37,089 bases of DNA, taken from the NCBI GenBank assembly GCA_017446685.1, contig JAFSQI010000030.1, forward strand, positions 1 to 37,089, in the 5' to 3' direction. Every line of letters begins with the position of its first letter. The first letter of the stretch is position 1. Positions 12,785 to 20,113 of the stretch are shown one piece after another. A program made the translations under genes and the position numbers. Source of the DNA: Butyrivibrio sp. Its GTDB lineage: Bacteria > Bacillota > Clostridia > Lachnospirales > Lachnospiraceae. Below the pieces are notes generated by a model that worked only from the letters and a program-made list of their open reading frames with translations, was not told where the DNA came from and ran no database searches.

Positions 12785-13933
12785 ATGACACGAGAAGAGA
12801 CCTTTAAAATGCTTAGCGAATATGTAGATTATCTGCTTGATAAATCCGATGCCGAGCATCCTATGTGGAACATCGAAATGGTTCTTGGTGGCAAGCCAAA
12901 CAAGTGGAATTATATAGACGGCTGCATGATTACCGCTGTCCTTTCATTATACGAGATGACAGGCGATAAGAAGTACCTTGATTTTGCAGATAAATTTGTG
13001 GGCTGGTTTGTTCAGGACGACGGTTCTATCAAAACATACAGTACTGATGAGTACAATCTTGACAATATCAATCCATCCAAAAATCTGTTCAAGCTCTATG
13101 ACCTTACCGGAAAAGAAAAGTACAGAAAAGCCATGGACACAGTCAGAGCGCAGCTTGATACCATGCCCCGTACAAAGGCAGGCAATTTCTGGCACAAGAA
13201 TATCTATCCATATCAGGTCTGGCTTGACGGAATGTATATGGCACAGCCTTTCTACATGGAATATGAACGTCGCTATAATAAAATGCAGGGCTGCCTTGAT
13301 TCCTTTAAGCAGTTCAAAAATGTAGAAGCGCTTATGAAGGATGAAAAGACAGGACTTTACTATCACGGATATGATGAAAGCCGCGAAATGTACTGGGCTG
13401 ATAAAGAAACCGGATGCAGCCCTAACTTCTGGCTCAGAGCTCTTGGATGGTTCACTGTAGCCTTGGTTGATACAGCAGAGGCAATGGATGAGTCAATGTA
13501 CTATGAATACAGATATCTTCAGACAATGCTTGAGAACCTTGCCAATTCTCTTATTCCTTTCCAGGATGAAAGCGGAATGTTCTATCAGGTCGTAGACAAA
13601 AAGGATGATGAAAGAAACTACCTTGAGACCTCAGGGACTGCACTTATCGCCTATGGTCTTTTAAAGGGTGTTCGTCTCGGATATCTTCCAAAGCGCTTTA
13701 GGGAAATTGCCATTAAGGCATTTGACGGTATTACAGAAAAGTATCTTTCAAGAAATGAAGACGGTTCTCCAAAGCTTGGTGGAATCTGTCTTGTGGCAGG
13801 TCTTGGTGGTGCGCAGCATCGCGATGGTTCTTTGGAATATTACTTCTCAGAGCCTGTTGTAGAAAATGAAGCAAAGGGTGTAGCTCCGCTTATTCTTGCT
13901 TACACAGAGCTTCTCAGAATAGAAAATTTATAA
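12785..13933 (+). CDS. GH105 unsaturated rhamnogalacturonyl (or galacturonyl) hydrolase
   Basis: A 382-residue (alpha/alpha)6-barrel glycosidase of the GH88/GH105 group. The catalytic Asp148 is in YQVWLDGMYMAQP, equivalent to the general acid of Bacillus YteR; PNFWLRALGWF, the conserved substrate-binding segment, and LETSGTALIAYGLLKG near the end are family hallmarks. These enzymes remove the 4,5-unsaturated uronic acid that lyases leave on pectin fragments. There is no signal peptide, so it works on imported oligosaccharides. GGAGG sits six bases before the ATG. It is the only plus-strand gene in the pectin region, has its own promoter, operator and terminator, and stands convergent to the minus-strand S66 peptidase. 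Confidence 0.9.
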   Translation: MTREETFKMLSEYVDYLLDKSDAEHPMWNIEMVLGGKPNKWNYIDGCMITAVLSLYEMTGDKKYLDFADKFVGWFVQDDGSIKTYSTDEYNLDNINPSKNLFKLYDLTGKEKYRKAMDTVRAQLDTMPRTKAGNFWHKNIYPYQVWLDGMYMAQPFYMEYERRYNKMQGCLDSFKQFKNVEALMKDEKTGLYYHGYDESREMYWADKETGCSPNFWLRALGWFTVALVDTAEAMDESMYYEYRYLQTMLENLANSLIPFQDESGMFYQVVDKKDDERNYLETSGTALIAYGLLKGVRLGYLPKRFREIAIKAFDGITEKYLSRNEDGSPKLGGICLVAGLGGAQHRDGSLEYYFSEPVVENEAKGVAPLILAYTELLRIENL

Positions 13934-14078: not shown

Positions 14079-15122
14079 TCAATTATTAAGCACATATTCA
14101 ATCTCTAATTTGTTATCTGCAAAATCAATTTTTGCATAGCTTCCACATATGATTGGTATCATTGGAGGATGGTGTCCTATATCAAGATCCATAAGAACAG
14201 GAACACCATATTCACCAAGGATATCCGTCACAGCATTATACTGGTTAAGTCCCATTATATCCTGACCAAACGCAGCTCCGGGTCTGCCGATAAGAAAACC
14301 TTTAAGATTATCAAACCAGCCTGCTTCTTTTAGGTTCCAAAGACTTCTCCTTATACTAAAAACATTAAGGTCACAAGCTTCTATAAACCAAATAATACCG
14401 TCATTCTTGTATTTTTCATTAAACTCTTTTACCTTGTCAAACTTTGTTCCAACCAGATTGGCCAGGCAGTCGAGACATCCACCAACAATCCGCCCTTCAA
14501 ATGATATATGGCTTTCACTTTGTTCCTCACTTCCAACAAATGCTTTCATGACATTTGCTTCAGTAAGATAATACGGTGCAGTTTCAGGCAAATCCTCCGG
14601 ACTGTCCATCTCCCACTTATCATAGCTTGAAAACTTTAGTTTTTTTCCGGTAATCAACTTCCATGCATCATCAATAGACAAGTGCCATGGCTCCATACCA
14701 AAATCTCCGGCACAAGGTGCATAAATAGCTGCAGTGTCCGAAAGTATAGCTGATGTAAACACAAAATTGGTGTTATCGGAATAACCCATATACCATTTTG
14801 GAGTAGCTTCTTTAACAGCTTCAAAATCAATATATGGAACGACCTCACACATCAGCTCTCCGCCGCCACATGACATCACCGCATCCACGCTGTCATCCAG
14901 ATAAAATGAATTAAGCTCCTCACCGCACTTCTTTGGTGTGTTGCTGATTCCTATTCCCTCTGAAAGATATGCATTAGGTCCAATCTTGCATTTGTAGCCC
15001 ATTTCATCAAATTTCTTTAAAGCACTGTCAAATCTCGAAATATATGGTTCTGTAGCACATCCGAAGGATGGTGCAACAAATCCGATTGTACCTTTTTCTT
15101 TTAAAAAATCAGGATATCGCAT
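14079..15122 (-). CDS. S66 family serine peptidase (LD-carboxypeptidase / MccF-like)
   Basis: A 347-residue peptidase of family S66. The nucleophile Ser115 is in YMGYSDNTNF, the catalytic Glu248 in WFIEACDLN, and the His in DIGHHPPM (317-318), giving the Ser-Glu-His triad. Family members are either LD-carboxypeptidases that trim cell-wall tetrapeptides or MccF, which destroys peptidyl-nucleotide antibiotics; the length near 345 and the GYSDNT segment fit the MccF-like branch slightly better, but sequence reading alone cannot decide. No signal peptide, so it is cytosolic. CGGAGG precedes the start. It lies 18 bases after barstar, probably last in the GH28-CE8-barnase-barstar transcript. Confidence 0.88.
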   Translation of the reverse strand: MRYPDFLKEKGTIGFVAPSFGCATEPYISRFDSALKKFDEMGYKCKIGPNAYLSEGIGISNTPKKCGEELNSFYLDDSVDAVMSCGGGELMCEVVPYIDFEAVKEATPKWYMGYSDNTNFVFTSAILSDTAAIYAPCAGDFGMEPWHLSIDDAWKLITGKKLKFSSYDKWEMDSPEDLPETAPYYLTEANVMKAFVGSEEQSESHISFEGRIVGGCLDCLANLVGTKFDKVKEFNEKYKNDGIIWFIEACDLNVFSIRRSLWNLKEAGWFDNLKGFLIGRPGAAFGQDIMGLNQYNAVTDILGEYGVPVLMDLDIGHHPPMIPIICGSYAKIDFADNKLEIEYVLNN

Positions 15123-15140: not shown

Positions 15141-15416
15141 TCAATTATAAAATCTTATCTTTAATCCCTGAACTTCTTCACATGCCTCCAGGCAGAGCCT
15201 TTTAAGTGCCTCAAAATACCTGCCAAGCCTGTATACGGCAAATCCGGAATTGTAAAAAATAATATTCCATTCACTTCCGTATTCCGACAGCACATCATAA
15301 AATGCATCAAGATTCCTGCCGTAATATTCAGGGAGCGGAAGCTCTTTTACCAAAGCTTCCTGAAGCTCTTCCTTGCTGTGTACTTCCATAAGATCAATAT
15401 AAAAAACCTTTTCCAT
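15141..15416 (-). CDS. Barstar, ribonuclease inhibitor
   Basis: A 91-residue cytosolic protein of the barstar family. The inhibitor helix is preserved as PEYYGRNLDAFYDVL, in which Asp37 and Asp41 correspond to Asp35 and Asp39 of Bacillus barstar and Tyr31/Tyr32 to the contact Tyr29 region; these residues plug the barnase active site. Length is the family norm of about 90. The gene begins seven bases after the barnase stop, and its GGGGAGGAC ribosome binding site lies inside the last codons of the barnase gene, so inhibitor is made whenever the nuclease is. It should protect the producer from misrouted nuclease. Confidence 0.93.
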   Translation of the reverse strand: MEKVFYIDLMEVHSKEELQEALVKELPLPEYYGRNLDAFYDVLSEYGSEWNIIFYNSGFAVYRLGRYFEALKRLCLEACEEVQGLKIRFYN

Positions 15417-15422
15417 ATTTTG

Positions 15423-16094
15423 TCAGTCCTCCCCATATAATAGTTCAAAGGACTCATAATGGTCTTCAGTATAATAAATATACCCGTCATTGGAGTAAAT
15501 GATTCGCTTGGCACCTCTTTTGCTTTTTCCAAGAGTATCTATGTCGCATTCATGATACTCTCTTCCCTCTTCCTCAGGTAAATTACCTTCATAATTTCCA
15601 AAATAATCTCCACCTATGCACTTCCCCGGAGCTATATTCTCAAGTCCTCCGCCCTGCCATCCCAGTGCCTTTGCCTCTTTTTTGGTAATATAATTGGAGG
15701 GCAGCTTATCATAGATATGTATATAAAGTGCAACTTCATCTTTGGAATCATAGACCCCATCTTCGGAAACAACATATTTTTCCGCAAAATCAGCAGCCTC
15801 TGCCTCAGCTTCTTCATAGTCCTCATCACTAAAATATATGCTTTCGGATGAGGATGACGCTTCATCAGAATGAGAAACCTCATAGTCTGCGGTATCTATA
15901 CTTAAATTTCTGTCTTCTTCGTCGGCATCAATAACAGAATCAGAAGCAACAAGGCTTTTTGATAAATCCGCCGTATTTTCTATAGCACCGTAATCACCGC
16001 TGCTTTCATTTACAGTTTTATCGCATGCTGTAAGGATTCCTGCAAAAAGAATAACAGCAAGCAAAAAAGAATATGCCGCATTTATTTTTTTCAT
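15423..16094 (-). CDS. Lipoprotein-anchored barnase-type ribonuclease
   Basis: A 223-residue exported ribonuclease. Residues 1-23 are a lipoprotein signal peptide ending LTA-Cys24. A long acidic, Ser-rich spacer (about 25-110) leads to a barnase domain (about 118-220). All five barnase active-site residues align: Lys138 in NYITKKEA, Glu182 in YHECDID, Arg193 and Arg197 in KRGAKRIIYS, His212 in DHYESF. Ordinary barnase is freely secreted and about 110 residues in its mature form; tethering through a lipid and a spacer is unusual. Its ATG overlaps the pectinesterase stop (ATGA) without a separate ribosome binding site, so translation is coupled. Barstar follows at once. Likely use: attack on neighbouring cells or degradation of external RNA for nutrients. 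Confidence 0.92.
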   Translation of the reverse strand: MKKINAAYSFLLAVILFAGILTACDKTVNESSGDYGAIENTADLSKSLVASDSVIDADEEDRNLSIDTADYEVSHSDEASSSSESIYFSDEDYEEAEAEAADFAEKYVVSEDGVYDSKDEVALYIHIYDKLPSNYITKKEAKALGWQGGGLENIAPGKCIGGDYFGNYEGNLPEEEGREYHECDIDTLGKSKRGAKRIIYSNDGYIYYTEDHYESFELLYGED

Positions 16095-17134
16095 CTGATA
16101 ATCCCTGTCGCCTTTTCAACTATTAAATCAGCTTCATGATTTATGTTTTTGGCCATGTTTTCATCTATATCTTTTACAAAGCTGTTTTTACCGGAAAGCT
16201 CAATCTCTTCGCCGTCAGCGGATATAGTGCCGTATTCTCCGTAAAAAGTGTCCGGATGCTTTTTATCAACTGCTCCCCATCCAGAAAAACGCTCTGTAGC
16301 AATAGTGTCATCCATAATACAATTAAGAAAAACTGCCTTAGCCTCATCTCTCCATGGTCTGCCAAGGAAAACAGAATTTTTATCACAGCCTTCTTCACCC
16401 TTTACGGTGCAGTTTCTAAAAATCATACCTGTGTCACTTTTAAGGCCACATCCAGCAGCTATATATCCGTTAATAAAACGGTCATCAGTTTCTTTCTCAG
16501 TCACTGCTTTTCTGTTATTACAGATAATCGTGCAGTTATCAAATACCGCATCAGCACCGCCAAAAATGAAATCTACATCACCTGTGATAATGCAGTTTTT
16601 GTAATACTGGCTTGTAAGCTTTCTCTCTGTCATGACCCTTGGACCCATGAAGCCGTTTTTCTGCCTTTCACTTACAGGAAGCGGTGACATGAAAAGAGTG
16701 TCCTGATGGCCGAAAAGTTCAACATTTTCAAAATAGCACTTCTTAGCATCTGCATATACTGCAAGTGCCTGTCCTGCCAGACTTCCGTCTCCGGAATTAT
16801 TGCGGATTGACAGATTCTTTACTGTGACTTTTTCTCCTGCAAAAAAAGCTGTATAGCTTCTAAAAGTTCCTCTTTTGCTGCCGTCCTCACAGATATCATT
16901 TGCACAGTCACTGTATTCAATAACAGTTTTCCCAATTCCTTCTCCAACGAAAGTAATATCCTTTTTGTCGGAAAAGATCTTTTCATGATATATGCCGCTC
17001 TCAATGTAGATTACTGCCTTTTCCTCATATGGAACAGCCAATATCGCCTCCGAAACAGATGTAAAATCCACAGGAGCAATCTCTCCTTCTGCTTCGCTGT
17101 TATAATTTCTTTTTCCTACCCTTATCTCTAACAT
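16091..17134 (-). CDS. Pectinesterase (CE8), no signal peptide
   Basis: A 347-residue right-handed beta-helix esterase that removes methyl groups from homogalacturonan. The catalytic pair is visible as Asp145 in FGHQDTLFM and Asp188 in GDVDFIFGGADA, with the oxyanion Gln144 and the LGRPWR segment (Arg259, Trp261). The protein starts directly at MLEIRVGKRNYNSEAEG with no signal peptide or membrane segment, so it should act inside the cell on imported methylated oligogalacturonides. It begins 26 bases after the GH28 stop and overlaps the barnase start by four bases. Confidence 0.93.
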   Translation of the reverse strand: MLEIRVGKRNYNSEAEGEIAPVDFTSVSEAILAVPYEEKAVIYIESGIYHEKIFSDKKDITFVGEGIGKTVIEYSDCANDICEDGSKRGTFRSYTAFFAGEKVTVKNLSIRNNSGDGSLAGQALAVYADAKKCYFENVELFGHQDTLFMSPLPVSERQKNGFMGPRVMTERKLTSQYYKNCIITGDVDFIFGGADAVFDNCTIICNNRKAVTEKETDDRFINGYIAAGCGLKSDTGMIFRNCTVKGEEGCDKNSVFLGRPWRDEAKAVFLNCIMDDTIATERFSGWGAVDKKHPDTFYGEYGTISADGEEIELSGKNSFVKDIDENMAKNINHEADLIVEKATGIIR

Positions 17135-17160: not shown

Positions 17161-18735
17161 TTATAAATACTTCACTTCTTCAATCACACTGTTTTCAACA
17201 TTAGAAAGCTCCGGCTCCCTATCAGCGCAGCCTTTTATGTCAATATTTTTAAGTACAAGCTCTTTGACATTTTTGGCAAATACGCTTCTTCCGCTCATCT
17301 CATCAAAATTATCCATCATGACAGGTCTCTCGGGAACTCTCTTACTTTCAGGCAAAAACTCTGCCTTGATATTTTCAAAAGTAAGTTTTCCGATAGGTCT
17401 TTCGGGAAGTCCAAAAGCACAAAGCATGCACGCACTAACGCCCTTACATTCGATATTTTTTCCTGTGATAGAGCCGATTACAGGTGTCATCTCATCCACC
17501 GGCGCTGGTGCCTGATTCTGCACATAGTCACTATGTCCGTCCGGATCACAGAAATAGAACATATTTACAGTAAATGGCATATGAACACCATCCATTTTTA
17601 TGTTTTCAAAAAGTATGTCATCAAGCACAGACCTCTCTCCGCGCCCTCTTCTTGTCTTTATTCTAAGTCCTCTGTCAGTACCGTCAAAAATACACTGACT
17701 TACTCTGATGCCCTTAACACCGCCGGCAGCTTCACTTCCAACTGTCACACTGCCATGTCCTCTCTCAAATTTACAGTTCCTGATAATAATATTTTCTGTG
17801 ACTTTATGGTGCATAAGACTCATGTAATACTTTCCGCTCTTGATTGCCATGCAGTCATCACCTACAGATATTGTAATTCCAAGAACAAGGACATTCTTGC
17901 AGCTCTCAGGATCAAGACCATCTGTATTAGGTGAATCAGAAGGATTGTGTATATATAAATTTAAAAATGAAAGATTCTCGCTGTAATATGGATGAATTGT
18001 CCAACATGGAGAATTTTTTACTGTAACGCTCTGCATACGTACTCTGTTGCATCTTGCAAAGAAAACAGTATTGGGTCTCCAGGCTCCTCTTTTAACCTTA
18101 GGATTAACCCACCAGTCACCATTTTGCGCATTTCCGTCAAGAGTTCCCTCTCCTATGATATCAACATCCTCACAGTCAATTGCTGTTATAAGAGATGCAA
18201 AGCTGTCCAAAGGATTTCCCTCCCAGCTTGCAATATTGTACTCATCTTTTTCATCTGTAGTACGAATCATACCGGGCAGTACAGGATAGTGACTTCTGTC
18301 GGTATCTCCTAGAAGAACTGCATCCTTATCAAGCCACAATGTCATATGACTCTTTAAAAAGACAGGTGTTGTATAATATGTTCCCTTTGGAAGATATACT
18401 GTTCCGTCTTTGGGACATGCACAGATTGCAGCCTGAATAGCAGCAGTATCAGAAGTCTTTCCATCCTTCTTTGCACCAAAAGCTGTGACATCTAAAAGCA
18501 CTGATTCATGCCTTGTTGTAAATTCTTTTTCACAGATATTACCCTCTGTCCCTACTCCTATCACGTACTTAGTATCCGGCAAAAGACCTGAAACTGAGAC
18601 TACATTTTTGTCATCTTCCAATACTTTTTTACCATTTATATATACAGAATAATTCTGAGACTGTCTGAAAATCTCCTCAGAATCAAGTTCAATAGTTACG
18701 CTTCTGTTAAAAACTTCAACTACAGTAAAATTCAT
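17161..18735 (-). CDS. GH28 polygalacturonase with N-terminal Fn3-like domain, intracellular
   Basis: A 524-residue enzyme. Residues ~1-75 look like a fibronectin type III-like domain, and ~80-524 form the GH28 beta-helix. The four GH28 signatures are intact: NTD at 270-272, the Asp pair 293-294 in VGDDCMAIKS, GHG at 326-328 and RIK at 358-360. The Fn3-like front and the lack of a signal peptide are typical of cytosolic exo-polygalacturonases that take galacturonate from the ends of short fragments. Start at MNFTVVEVFN (18733-18735), with GGAGG five bases upstream; an in-frame ATG four codons earlier would overlap that site. First pectin gene of the GH28-CE8-barnase-barstar-S66 row. Confidence 0.92.
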   Translation of the reverse strand: MNFTVVEVFNRSVTIELDSEEIFRQSQNYSVYINGKKVLEDDKNVVSVSGLLPDTKYVIGVGTEGNICEKEFTTRHESVLLDVTAFGAKKDGKTSDTAAIQAAICACPKDGTVYLPKGTYYTTPVFLKSHMTLWLDKDAVLLGDTDRSHYPVLPGMIRTTDEKDEYNIASWEGNPLDSFASLITAIDCEDVDIIGEGTLDGNAQNGDWWVNPKVKRGAWRPNTVFFARCNRVRMQSVTVKNSPCWTIHPYYSENLSFLNLYIHNPSDSPNTDGLDPESCKNVLVLGITISVGDDCMAIKSGKYYMSLMHHKVTENIIIRNCKFERGHGSVTVGSEAAGGVKGIRVSQCIFDGTDRGLRIKTRRGRGERSVLDDILFENIKMDGVHMPFTVNMFYFCDPDGHSDYVQNQAPAPVDEMTPVIGSITGKNIECKGVSACMLCAFGLPERPIGKLTFENIKAEFLPESKRVPERPVMMDNFDEMSGRSVFAKNVKELVLKNIDIKGCADREPELSNVENSVIEEVKYL

Positions 18736-18873
18736 ATGCACCTCCAAAAATCAACAAAAAAACCAGTAACCACATAATAGCACATCGTCATCAAAGAAAA
18801 CTGTGAAATACTGAACAGAATACCTTTTAAGCCACCCATTGAATCTTCTTGCCAAAAGATGCGCTTCCATGCC

Positions 18874-19650
18874 TTAACCAATACACCATTCATCAATAAC
18901 TTCAGTTGCTTCCTCAAGCTGCTCATAAACTGTTATTTTTGGTTCTCCATCTCCGTCCTGAATGCCGTAATTTCCAAAATATGAATGAATACCACCCTCA
19001 ATTATGTACTCTGTAGCTTCCTTTGGCCAAAAGCTCTTACTCTCTTCATAGGCATCCATTTTCAGGACCTTATCTTCTGAACCATAAATAGATAAAAGTC
19101 TCAGGTCAGTATCAGAAAAATCAACTGTAGTATAGGACGCACATAAAATTATTCCCTTATACTCATCTTCATCAAGATGTTCTCCAAGATACTGGCATGC
19201 TGCCACACCTCCAAGAGAATGCCCTGCAAGATACCAGTCAAGATTTTCATACTGCTGCACCCTGTCAGGATATCTTTCTTTTATTAAATCCACAGCATTC
19301 ACTCGTAAAAATGCTATATTTTCCGGCATCCTTGGCAAAAGACACAGATAACCTTTTTCAGCAAGTTCATACATTAGTCCGCTATATGCATTAAACTCCA
19401 CCTTGCCACCGGGATAAAAAACTATAACTGCTTTTACTCCTTCCTCAAGTGGAACAAATACAGACATATCGTCGTCATAATAATATCCTACATCATCCGC
19501 TTCATCTGCGATATCACTTATAGTCTCGGTATCAGCCTTATAATAATTATTTGAATATATTTTAAAGGCAATTGCGCCTACAATTATCATCAACACAATT
19601 GCCCCAAAAATACTAAATACAACTTTTTTTGCTTTATTCTGCTTTTTCAT
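18874..19650 (-). CDS. Membrane-anchored alpha/beta hydrolase
   Basis: A 258-residue hydrolase. One N-terminal transmembrane segment (about 10-30) follows a Lys-rich start, so the enzyme domain is probably outside the cell membrane. The catalytic triad can be read as Ser145 in LAGHSLGGVA, Asp193 in YGSEDKVLK and His222 in EGGIHSYFGNYG, the pattern of the 'alpha/beta hydrolase fold-5' group. The substrate is unknown; in this setting a role in removing acetyl or methyl esters from plant polysaccharide is a guess. The gene start overlaps the end of the upstream repeat-domain protein by 17 bases, so the two are cotranscribed. Confidence 0.8.
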   Translation of the reverse strand: MKKQNKAKKVVFSIFGAIVLMIIVGAIAFKIYSNNYYKADTETISDIADEADDVGYYYDDDMSVFVPLEEGVKAVIVFYPGGKVEFNAYSGLMYELAEKGYLCLLPRMPENIAFLRVNAVDLIKERYPDRVQQYENLDWYLAGHSLGGVAACQYLGEHLDEDEYKGIILCASYTTVDFSDTDLRLLSIYGSEDKVLKMDAYEESKSFWPKEATEYIIEGGIHSYFGNYGIQDGDGEPKITVYEQLEEATEVIDEWCIG

Positions 19651-20113
19651 CTACATTACCCAAATCCTGTTCTATTATTTTTATAAGTTCCATCGCACTG
19701 GTAAAATCTTTTTTTTCATTACAGTTCACACAGACAACATGCCCCTGCCAAGTGGCATTCTGTCTGAAAGAAACCTGTACAATATAAGTTCCAAGCTTTC
19801 CTTTTTTATTCTGAATATTTCTCGTTCCATTTGTTTTCTGCACTTTGTCTATAGACATCTCATCATTTTTCTGACGATTGTGCCGTTTTTTACCACGCCC
19901 TATTAAGGATCTCTGCTCCAACCCTTTCTGCGGAAATCCCCACTCATCCATAAGTTCATCCATCATCACAAGAAGCTTGACACCGCTTTCAAAACATACG
20001 GGTTCATCTGAGTATTGATGCCATATTTTCCCCTGATAGTCAACATTTTCAACACTATCAATACATATGTTTATAAGATTTCTTGCAAAAAGCATCTGTT
20101 TAGCAGCACCCAT
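19634..20113 (-). CDS. Protein with two copies of an unnamed Trp/Tyr-Gln-Gly domain
   Basis: A 159-residue soluble protein that I do not recognise as a named family. It holds the same ~45-residue unit twice. Unit 1 (about 14-57) contains YQG at 26-28 and F41-x-S43 followed by KLLVMMDEL; unit 2 (about 110-152) contains WQG at 122-124 and F137-x-S139 followed by MELIKIIEQ. The G-to-F distance is 13 in both, and the helices align without gaps. A basic linker rich in Lys, Arg and Asn (about 70-107) joins them. The neighbouring 76-residue protein (20300-20530) is a third copy. AAGGA lies seven bases before the ATG. It overlaps the alpha/beta hydrolase start, but its function is unknown. Confidence 0.75.
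   Translation of the reverse strand: MGAAKQMLFARNLINICIDSVENVDYQGKIWHQYSDEPVCFESGVKLLVMMDELMDEWGFPQKGLEQRSLIGRGKKRHNRQKNDEMSIDKVQKTNGTRNIQNKKGKLGTYIVQVSFRQNATWQGHVVCVNCNEKKDFTSAMELIKIIEQDLGNVDEKAE

Follow-up and report, generated by a model that had tools for sequence, protein, structure and literature searches.

A barnase-type ribonuclease with a predicted lipid anchor and an adjacent barstar inhibitor are encoded in a 37,089-nucleotide stretch of DNA (referred to here as the window) from Butyrivibrio sp., a gut bacterium that digests plant material. The explanation of this pair that we favor, and to which we give about an even chance of being correct, is that the RNase is tethered to the cell envelope and digests RNA at the cell surface, that barstar guards the cytosol and that, in one Butyrivibrio clade, the enzyme is made on plant tissue. 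Coupling of the pair to pectin-related genes was real but lineage-bound.

The ribonuclease, its inhibitor and the surrounding genes

Assignment of the 223-residue ribonuclease (15423..16094, minus strand) to the RNase N1-T1 family was evident from its profile match, its predicted fold and its five catalytic residues. The Ribonuclease profile PF00545 scored 74.2 bits (cut-off 24) on residues 125-218, within a catalytic domain that was placed at residues 111-223 (15426..15764, minus strand) by Pfam, alignment, AlphaFold and Foldseek. All five active-site residues listed in an earlier note on this DNA (Lys138, Glu182, Arg193, Arg197 and His212) were present and aligned with K27, E73, R83, R87 and H102 of solved barnase, which we take to be the catalytic set in barnase numbering, and the complete set was found in 204 of 206 barnase sequences, identical ones counted. 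The best Foldseek match of the model, in which pLDDT of the domain ranged from 78 to 95 by blocks of ten residues, was to barnase 1bnj_C (E 4.6e-13, TM 0.93 by target length) with 50% identity across 107 columns. Profile, fold and conservation ruled out an artefact or chance reading frame.

The neighboring gene (15141..15416, minus strand) encodes a 91-residue barstar with no export signal, its N-terminus not being hydrophobic. Membership in the barstar family was indicated by a PF01337 score of 66.6 bits together with Asp37 and Asp41 in the sequence YYGRNLDAFYD; these residues, presumably the two key aspartates of barstar, were each retained in 188 of 189 barstars. The pair therefore resembles barnase and barstar of Bacillus amyloliquefaciens in fold, in the five catalytic residues and in the two key aspartates, but the present sequences differ from barnase at the Ala74 position (window residue 183), which was Cys in 204 of 206, and at the Arg59 position (window residue 168), which was Tyr in 172 of 206.

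The order of genes on the minus strand was a small protein of unknown family designated c2, encoded first in the presumed operon (19634..20113; 34 cluster members), an alpha/beta hydrolase with a hydrophobic N-terminus (18874..19650; PF12695, 144.4 bits), GH28 (17161..18747, first ATG at 18735; PF00295, 137.5 bits), CE8 pectinesterase (16091..17134; PF01095, 149.3 bits), barnase, barstar and peptidase S66, which begins 18 bases past barstar (14079..15122; PF02016 and PF17676). A further pectin-type gene, GH88 (12785..13933; PF07470, 326.6 bits), lies nearby on the plus strand. Intergenic gaps from GH28 to S66 were 26, -4, 6 and 18 bases and thus fit a single message. Promoter-like sites numbered 21, compared with 22.4 expected by chance, and the 5 terminator-like sites did not clearly exceed the 3.4 expected. 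The negative gap is the sequence ATGA (16091..16094, minus strand), in which the CE8 stop overlaps the barnase start as the earlier note had described, and the presumed ribosome-binding site of barstar, GGGGAGG (15428..15434, minus strand), was likewise found where the note had placed it, inside the 3' end of the barnase gene. The barstar start had been put seven bases after the nuclease; the spacing is indeed close, but six bases separate the barnase TGA from the barstar ATG and the seventh is the first base of that ATG.

No export signal was seen in either CE8 or GH28, which agrees with the small intracellular Butyrivibrio pectin methylesterases reported in PMC12109409 and PMC10530356. PMC5217386 deals with the cytosolic proteome of B. 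proteoclasticus, and its main text contains none of the terms ribonuclease, GH28, CE8 and GH88. Since the two pectin enzymes appear to lack export signals, the cluster would act on imported oligogalacturonides, except for the exported RNase and, as judged from its hydrophobic N-terminus, the alpha/beta hydrolase. The window genome (88.75% complete) contained a single barnase match and a single barstar match, as well as one 5_nucleotid_C match and two Bmp matches.

Besides the copy at 20113-19634, a second copy of c2 was noted in the window at 20530-20300. Its predicted structure consists of two strand-strand-strand-helix halves with a conserved W-Q-G. Neither window copy matched Pfam or PADLOC, the longer copy did not match NCBIfam and a fold search of the PDB with the c2 model gave nothing at E <= 0.001. 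Members of the c2 cluster were also found in slots that lack barnase.

Lipobox, spacer and other putative tethers

The N-terminus of the window barnase consists of a predicted signal peptide (residues 1-23, 16026..16094, minus strand; helix at 5-23 in the model) that ends in the lipobox L-T-A-Cys24 (16023..16034, minus strand). Two lipobox patterns (PS51257-like and G+LPP) matched and both ended at Cys24, as expected for the class II-type signal claimed in the earlier note. By pattern match, the sequence has a positive n-region, a hydrophobic core and a lipobox Cys, the features that we take, along with these patterns, to mark a lipoprotein. The Cys24 column was kept in 11 of 12 aligned sequences, window included. 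Between this cysteine and the catalytic domain lies an acidic spacer (residues 25-110, 15765..16022, minus strand), recognized by composition, which at 86 residues with 26 D/E against 4 K/R corresponds closely to the length of about 85 given previously and for which pLDDT was mostly below 50 (residues 25-100 and 102-104).

Lipoboxes were not restricted to the window gene. A strict lipobox test was passed by 99 of 140 barnases (40 of 60 in the genus and 59 of 80 elsewhere in the family); for comparison, other called genes passed in 140 of 1495 cases and barstars in 1 of 124. When a lax pattern was added to the strict one, the numbers rose to 43 of 60 genus loci and 65 of 80 other-genus loci. 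Of the remaining barnases, 16 of 60 in the genus and 14 of 80 in other genera had a hydrophobic N-terminus of non-lipobox form, and one in each set had neither, both at contig ends. A lipid anchor is thus predicted to be a common trait of these barnases rather than a peculiarity of the window gene; as a distinguishing mark it holds against the classical enzyme, which in Bacillus amyloliquefaciens is freely secreted rather than provided with a predicted lipobox and acidic stalk, but not among relatives. Spacers of the lipobox form were about one-fifth acidic, and their median length was 86 residues for the genus as compared with 57 for other genera. Long fusions aside, they spanned 20 to 147 residues, a range that counts against assuming reach through the wall.

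Other arrangements ahead of the same domain were also noted. In two species (loci L063 and L108), barnase was fused behind a membrane-type alpha/beta hydrolase, and the separate hydrolase of the window was 56% identical to the hydrolase part of L063; neither GH28 nor CE8 was called within the stretch fetched for these two loci. Five loci (L086, L100, L101, L102 and L105) encoded long lipobox barnase proteins of approximately 570-610 residues, of which that of L105 was transglutaminase-like by Pfam and the other four were alike in length and neighbors. From these sequences, the carrier appears to vary while the barnase domain stays, the forms being lipobox plus spacer, membrane-type N-terminus, hydrolase fusion and long lipobox protein. 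Four further barnases of 323-346 residues (L080, L085, L094 and L112) had a hydrophobic N-terminus and about 200 extra residues ahead of the domain, and no further Pfam domain was found in L085.

Within the genus, lipobox form was associated with pectin linkage, the lipobox being present in 30 of 30 linked loci and 10 of 24 unlinked loci (Fisher P 6e-7). This comparison comprised 54 of the 60 loci, as L090, L118 and L119 were outside the tree and L074, L091 and L098 were unscored for linkage. On the tree, the same association came down to three independent contrasts on well-supported branches (sign test 0.5 to 1, a test in which fewer than six contrasts cannot attain 0.05), so that kinship alone may explain it.

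Distribution of the pair and its genomic neighborhood

Of 79 genus genomes, 58 had a barnase match, in a single copy in 56 of them; in a family sample, 93 of 397 genomes had one. Barstar was present in 57 of the 58 barnase-positive genus genomes, the exception being G043, whose barnase contig is 3.3 kb long. The 21 genus genomes that lack barnase had no barstar. In the family sample, hand comparison placed both genes in 88 genomes, barstar only in 18 (18 of 304 barnase-less genomes) and barnase only in 5. The loci read comprised all 60 places in the genus, 80 of 92 other places in the family (the 12 weakest left out) and the best 80 of 578 candidates from named records; 14 Butyrivibrio loci among the last repeated barnase sequences of genus loci and were excluded, and among the 66 kept L280 repeats L122. 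Genes were called by a simple script, and the neighbor lists may therefore miss or misplace short genes. Barstar was found in 57 of 60 genus loci and was the next gene in 131 of 144 non-genus loci read, part of which come from the best 80 of 578 candidates. Adjacency was thus the rule among these loci, whereas in PMC5021464 the operon of balifase and its inhibitor YrdF in Bacillus licheniformis is called unique. That operon resembles the window pair in joining an RNase and a barstar-type inhibitor; balifase is described there as extracellular, as opposed to the membrane-tethered form predicted here.

In three loci (L061, L062 and L117), barnase was located beside SbcC/SbcD-type genes and the barstar match fell inside longer frames of 311-350 residues. 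In another (L113), a called frame of 707 residues separated barnase from barstar.

The gene directly upstream of barnase varied among the 60 genus loci, being CE8 in 16, a TPP enzyme in 10, GH28 in 8, a permease in 5, a PMT-type gene in 4, SbcC in 3 and other genes in 5; the rest were divergent (3), hydrolase fusions (2), loci with CE8 downstream (2) or loci at a contig edge (2). CE8 as a fixed partner was accordingly rejected. Within the fetched stretch, GH28 was found in 29 loci, CE8 in 18 and either in 30. Thirty loci had CE8, GH28 or a PMT-type gene upstream or else CE8 downstream, and all but L104 fell in a single, weakly supported group of 37 rows. In the five loci with long lipobox proteins, the upstream gene was of Xan_ur_permease type (by Pfam on L105) and CarB was near (by Pfam on L101), with a 4-base overlap in three. 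Barnase presence did not track CE8 presence over the genus, CE8 being found in 44 of 58 genomes with barnase and 14 of 21 without it (Fisher P 0.41).

For the coupling of nuclease to pectin enzyme proposed in the earlier note, these results were mixed. The order CE8, barnase, barstar does recur in relatives, with CE8 directly upstream in 16 of the 60 loci, and a row containing GH28 was noted in two other genera. Cultured strains with CE8 upstream include Butyrivibrio sp. MC2021 and AE3009. Against this, the linkage is bound to lineages, CE8 presence is not tracked, CE8 and GH28 of the window show no export signal and the exact ATGA overlap was found in just 2 of the 16 CE8 loci, to which L082 would be added if translation began at its second Met, as in its relatives.

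Outside the genus, two of the 80 family loci had GH28 near barnase and the 66 others (from the best 80 of 578) had none, for a total of 2 of 146; a weak CE8 match (24 bits) was noted in L234, one of the 66. Both GH28 loci, from two genera, had GH28, a TIM-barrel gene, barnase, barstar and a HerA-type gene in a row (assigned partly by cluster), and one of them, L187, also contained UxaC, altronate dehydratase and mannitol-dehydrogenase-type genes, making it a galacturonate locus. GH28 was present in 109 of 394 family genomes. For 1-5 copies in a positive genome of roughly 3 Mb, the chance of a same-strand GH28 less than 1 kb upstream was estimated by hand at near 0.0001 per locus; two of 146 is more than chance, although the two loci, which have the same gene order, amount to a single event and the estimate is post hoc. 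Otherwise, operon neighbors outside the pectin lineages were mixed. Among the 25 families listed, none accounted for more than 2 of 53 upstream neighbors; downstream neighbors included YgjP-like genes in 8 of 59 and DHHA1/RecJ-type genes in 7 of 59 (53 of 54 upstream and 59 of 60 downstream, L196 being omitted as a near copy of L195). The downstream recurrence of YgjP-like and RecJ-type genes does not suggest a nutritional role. Barstar followed by YgjP-like and RecJ-type genes was seen in several genera (for example, L127, L128, L135, L149, L161 and L181).

Such variety is what would be expected if the pair were an ordinary envelope RNase cassette and the pectin genes merely shared a variable chromosomal slot with it, with no link to plant feeding. 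The slot before M18-SseB-CheX carries different genes by species, barnase stands directly behind the TPP enzyme in ten loci, its presence over the genus is uncorrelated with that of CE8 and neighbors elsewhere are mixed. In genus genomes without barnase, none was found in the 19 slots fetched from the 21 genomes (G032 and G047, with no close M18 match, were left out), and the slot of G071 contained, by eye, CE8 followed by a hydrolase-like gene. Against a merely shared slot, the abhydrolase-GH28-(CE8)-barnase block is retained in two settings, ahead of M18-SseB-CheX or, depending on the species, ahead of DUF1858 genes; CE8 remains beside the pair after rearrangement in L076 and L106; and another lineage has GH28 in the same row. 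We regard this explanation as unlikely, though worth keeping in mind.

Possible roles of the putatively tethered ribonuclease

The pair may alternatively serve contact-dependent antagonism, in which the tethered RNase would harm neighboring cells and barstar would confer immunity. This possibility is suggested by the toxin-then-immunity gene order, by varied carriers ahead of a common C-terminal domain, which recall polymorphic toxins, by the family genomes with barstar and no barnase and by the greater divergence of barstar than of barnase in the genus (median identity 0.50 compared with 0.70 over 1431 pairs). It also finds support in two papers: PMC3482391, where the same domain and immunity pair (Tox-Barnase and Imm-Barstar) occurs behind varied N-terminal carriers, where simple barnase-barstar pairs are considered a possible incipient toxin-immunity order and where lipobox-anchored effectors of Amoebophilus are described, and PMC4725963, where a barstar-domain immunity protein belongs to a Pseudomonas CDI system. 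Unlike those polymorphic toxins, the window protein contained the RNase domain alone by Pfam, and a Pfam scan of ten window genes gave no delivery domain. The single copy in nearly all positive genus genomes, the lack of barstar in genus genomes without barnase and the conserved catalytic set also argue against antagonism, which we consider improbable. An intracellular toxin-antitoxin module, although in keeping with the adjacency of RNase and inhibitor genes, is very hard to credit given the predicted export signal of the window RNase and its relatives and the lack of any match of either protein to PADLOC at E 0.001 and of any match in a phage collection at E 1e-5. Neither protein matched NCBIfam, and of five plasmid records found none had a single place spanning 80% of the query.

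Under the favored explanation, barnase would be exported, lipid-modified at Cys24 and held on the outer face of the membrane by its flexible acidic stalk, while barstar from the adjacent gene would block enzyme still in the cytosol. At the cell surface, the catalytic domain would cut RNA released by broken plant cells and lysed microbes, and the cell would import the products as sources of phosphate and nucleosides. The pair would be a cassette that moves between operons; in one Butyrivibrio clade it lies behind abhydrolase-GH28-(CE8), so that its production would coincide with feeding on soft plant tissue. That the enzyme is exported and anchored and that a cytosolic inhibitor protects the cell are predictions from sequence by established rules; lipid modification, co-transcription, activity and nutritional use we infer.

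Digestion of surface RNA appears the likeliest use because the pair is conserved and catalytically intact, because of the five permease-type loci and because the Bacillus relative balifase is induced by phosphate starvation (PMC5021464). Galacturonan-type neighbors in two lineages count for the tethered, RNA-digesting enzyme made on plant tissue. Genes for permeases, nucleotidases and Bmp proteins are common, and their presence is weak evidence. The mismatch with CE8 presence, the mixed neighbors and the non-nutritional downstream partners count against this reading.

Barnase is a textbook secreted enzyme, but to our knowledge its natural role is not agreed. In the literature searched, which included papers on barnase with Butyrivibrio or Lachnospiraceae, no description of a lipid-anchored barnase was found, although one may exist elsewhere. 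On a broader scale, we suggest tentatively, and with some doubt, that Clostridia maintain an RNase devoted to the cell surface, which does not diffuse away and whose means of attachment has been exchanged repeatedly (a lipobox, a membrane segment, a membrane-bound alpha/beta hydrolase or a transglutaminase-like lipoprotein) while the domain and its barstar stayed constant. In galacturonan users, this enzyme may have been wired into a pectin operon, with pectin genes and lipobox lost together, and may act on RNA or on cells at the plant surface. The hydrolase fusions name a surface hydrolase as its likely partner. A predicted membrane-tethered barnase in many rumen and gut Clostridia, with pectin wiring in some, would provide a testable setting for the role of barnase, the two candidates being RNA feeding at the surface and contact antagonism.
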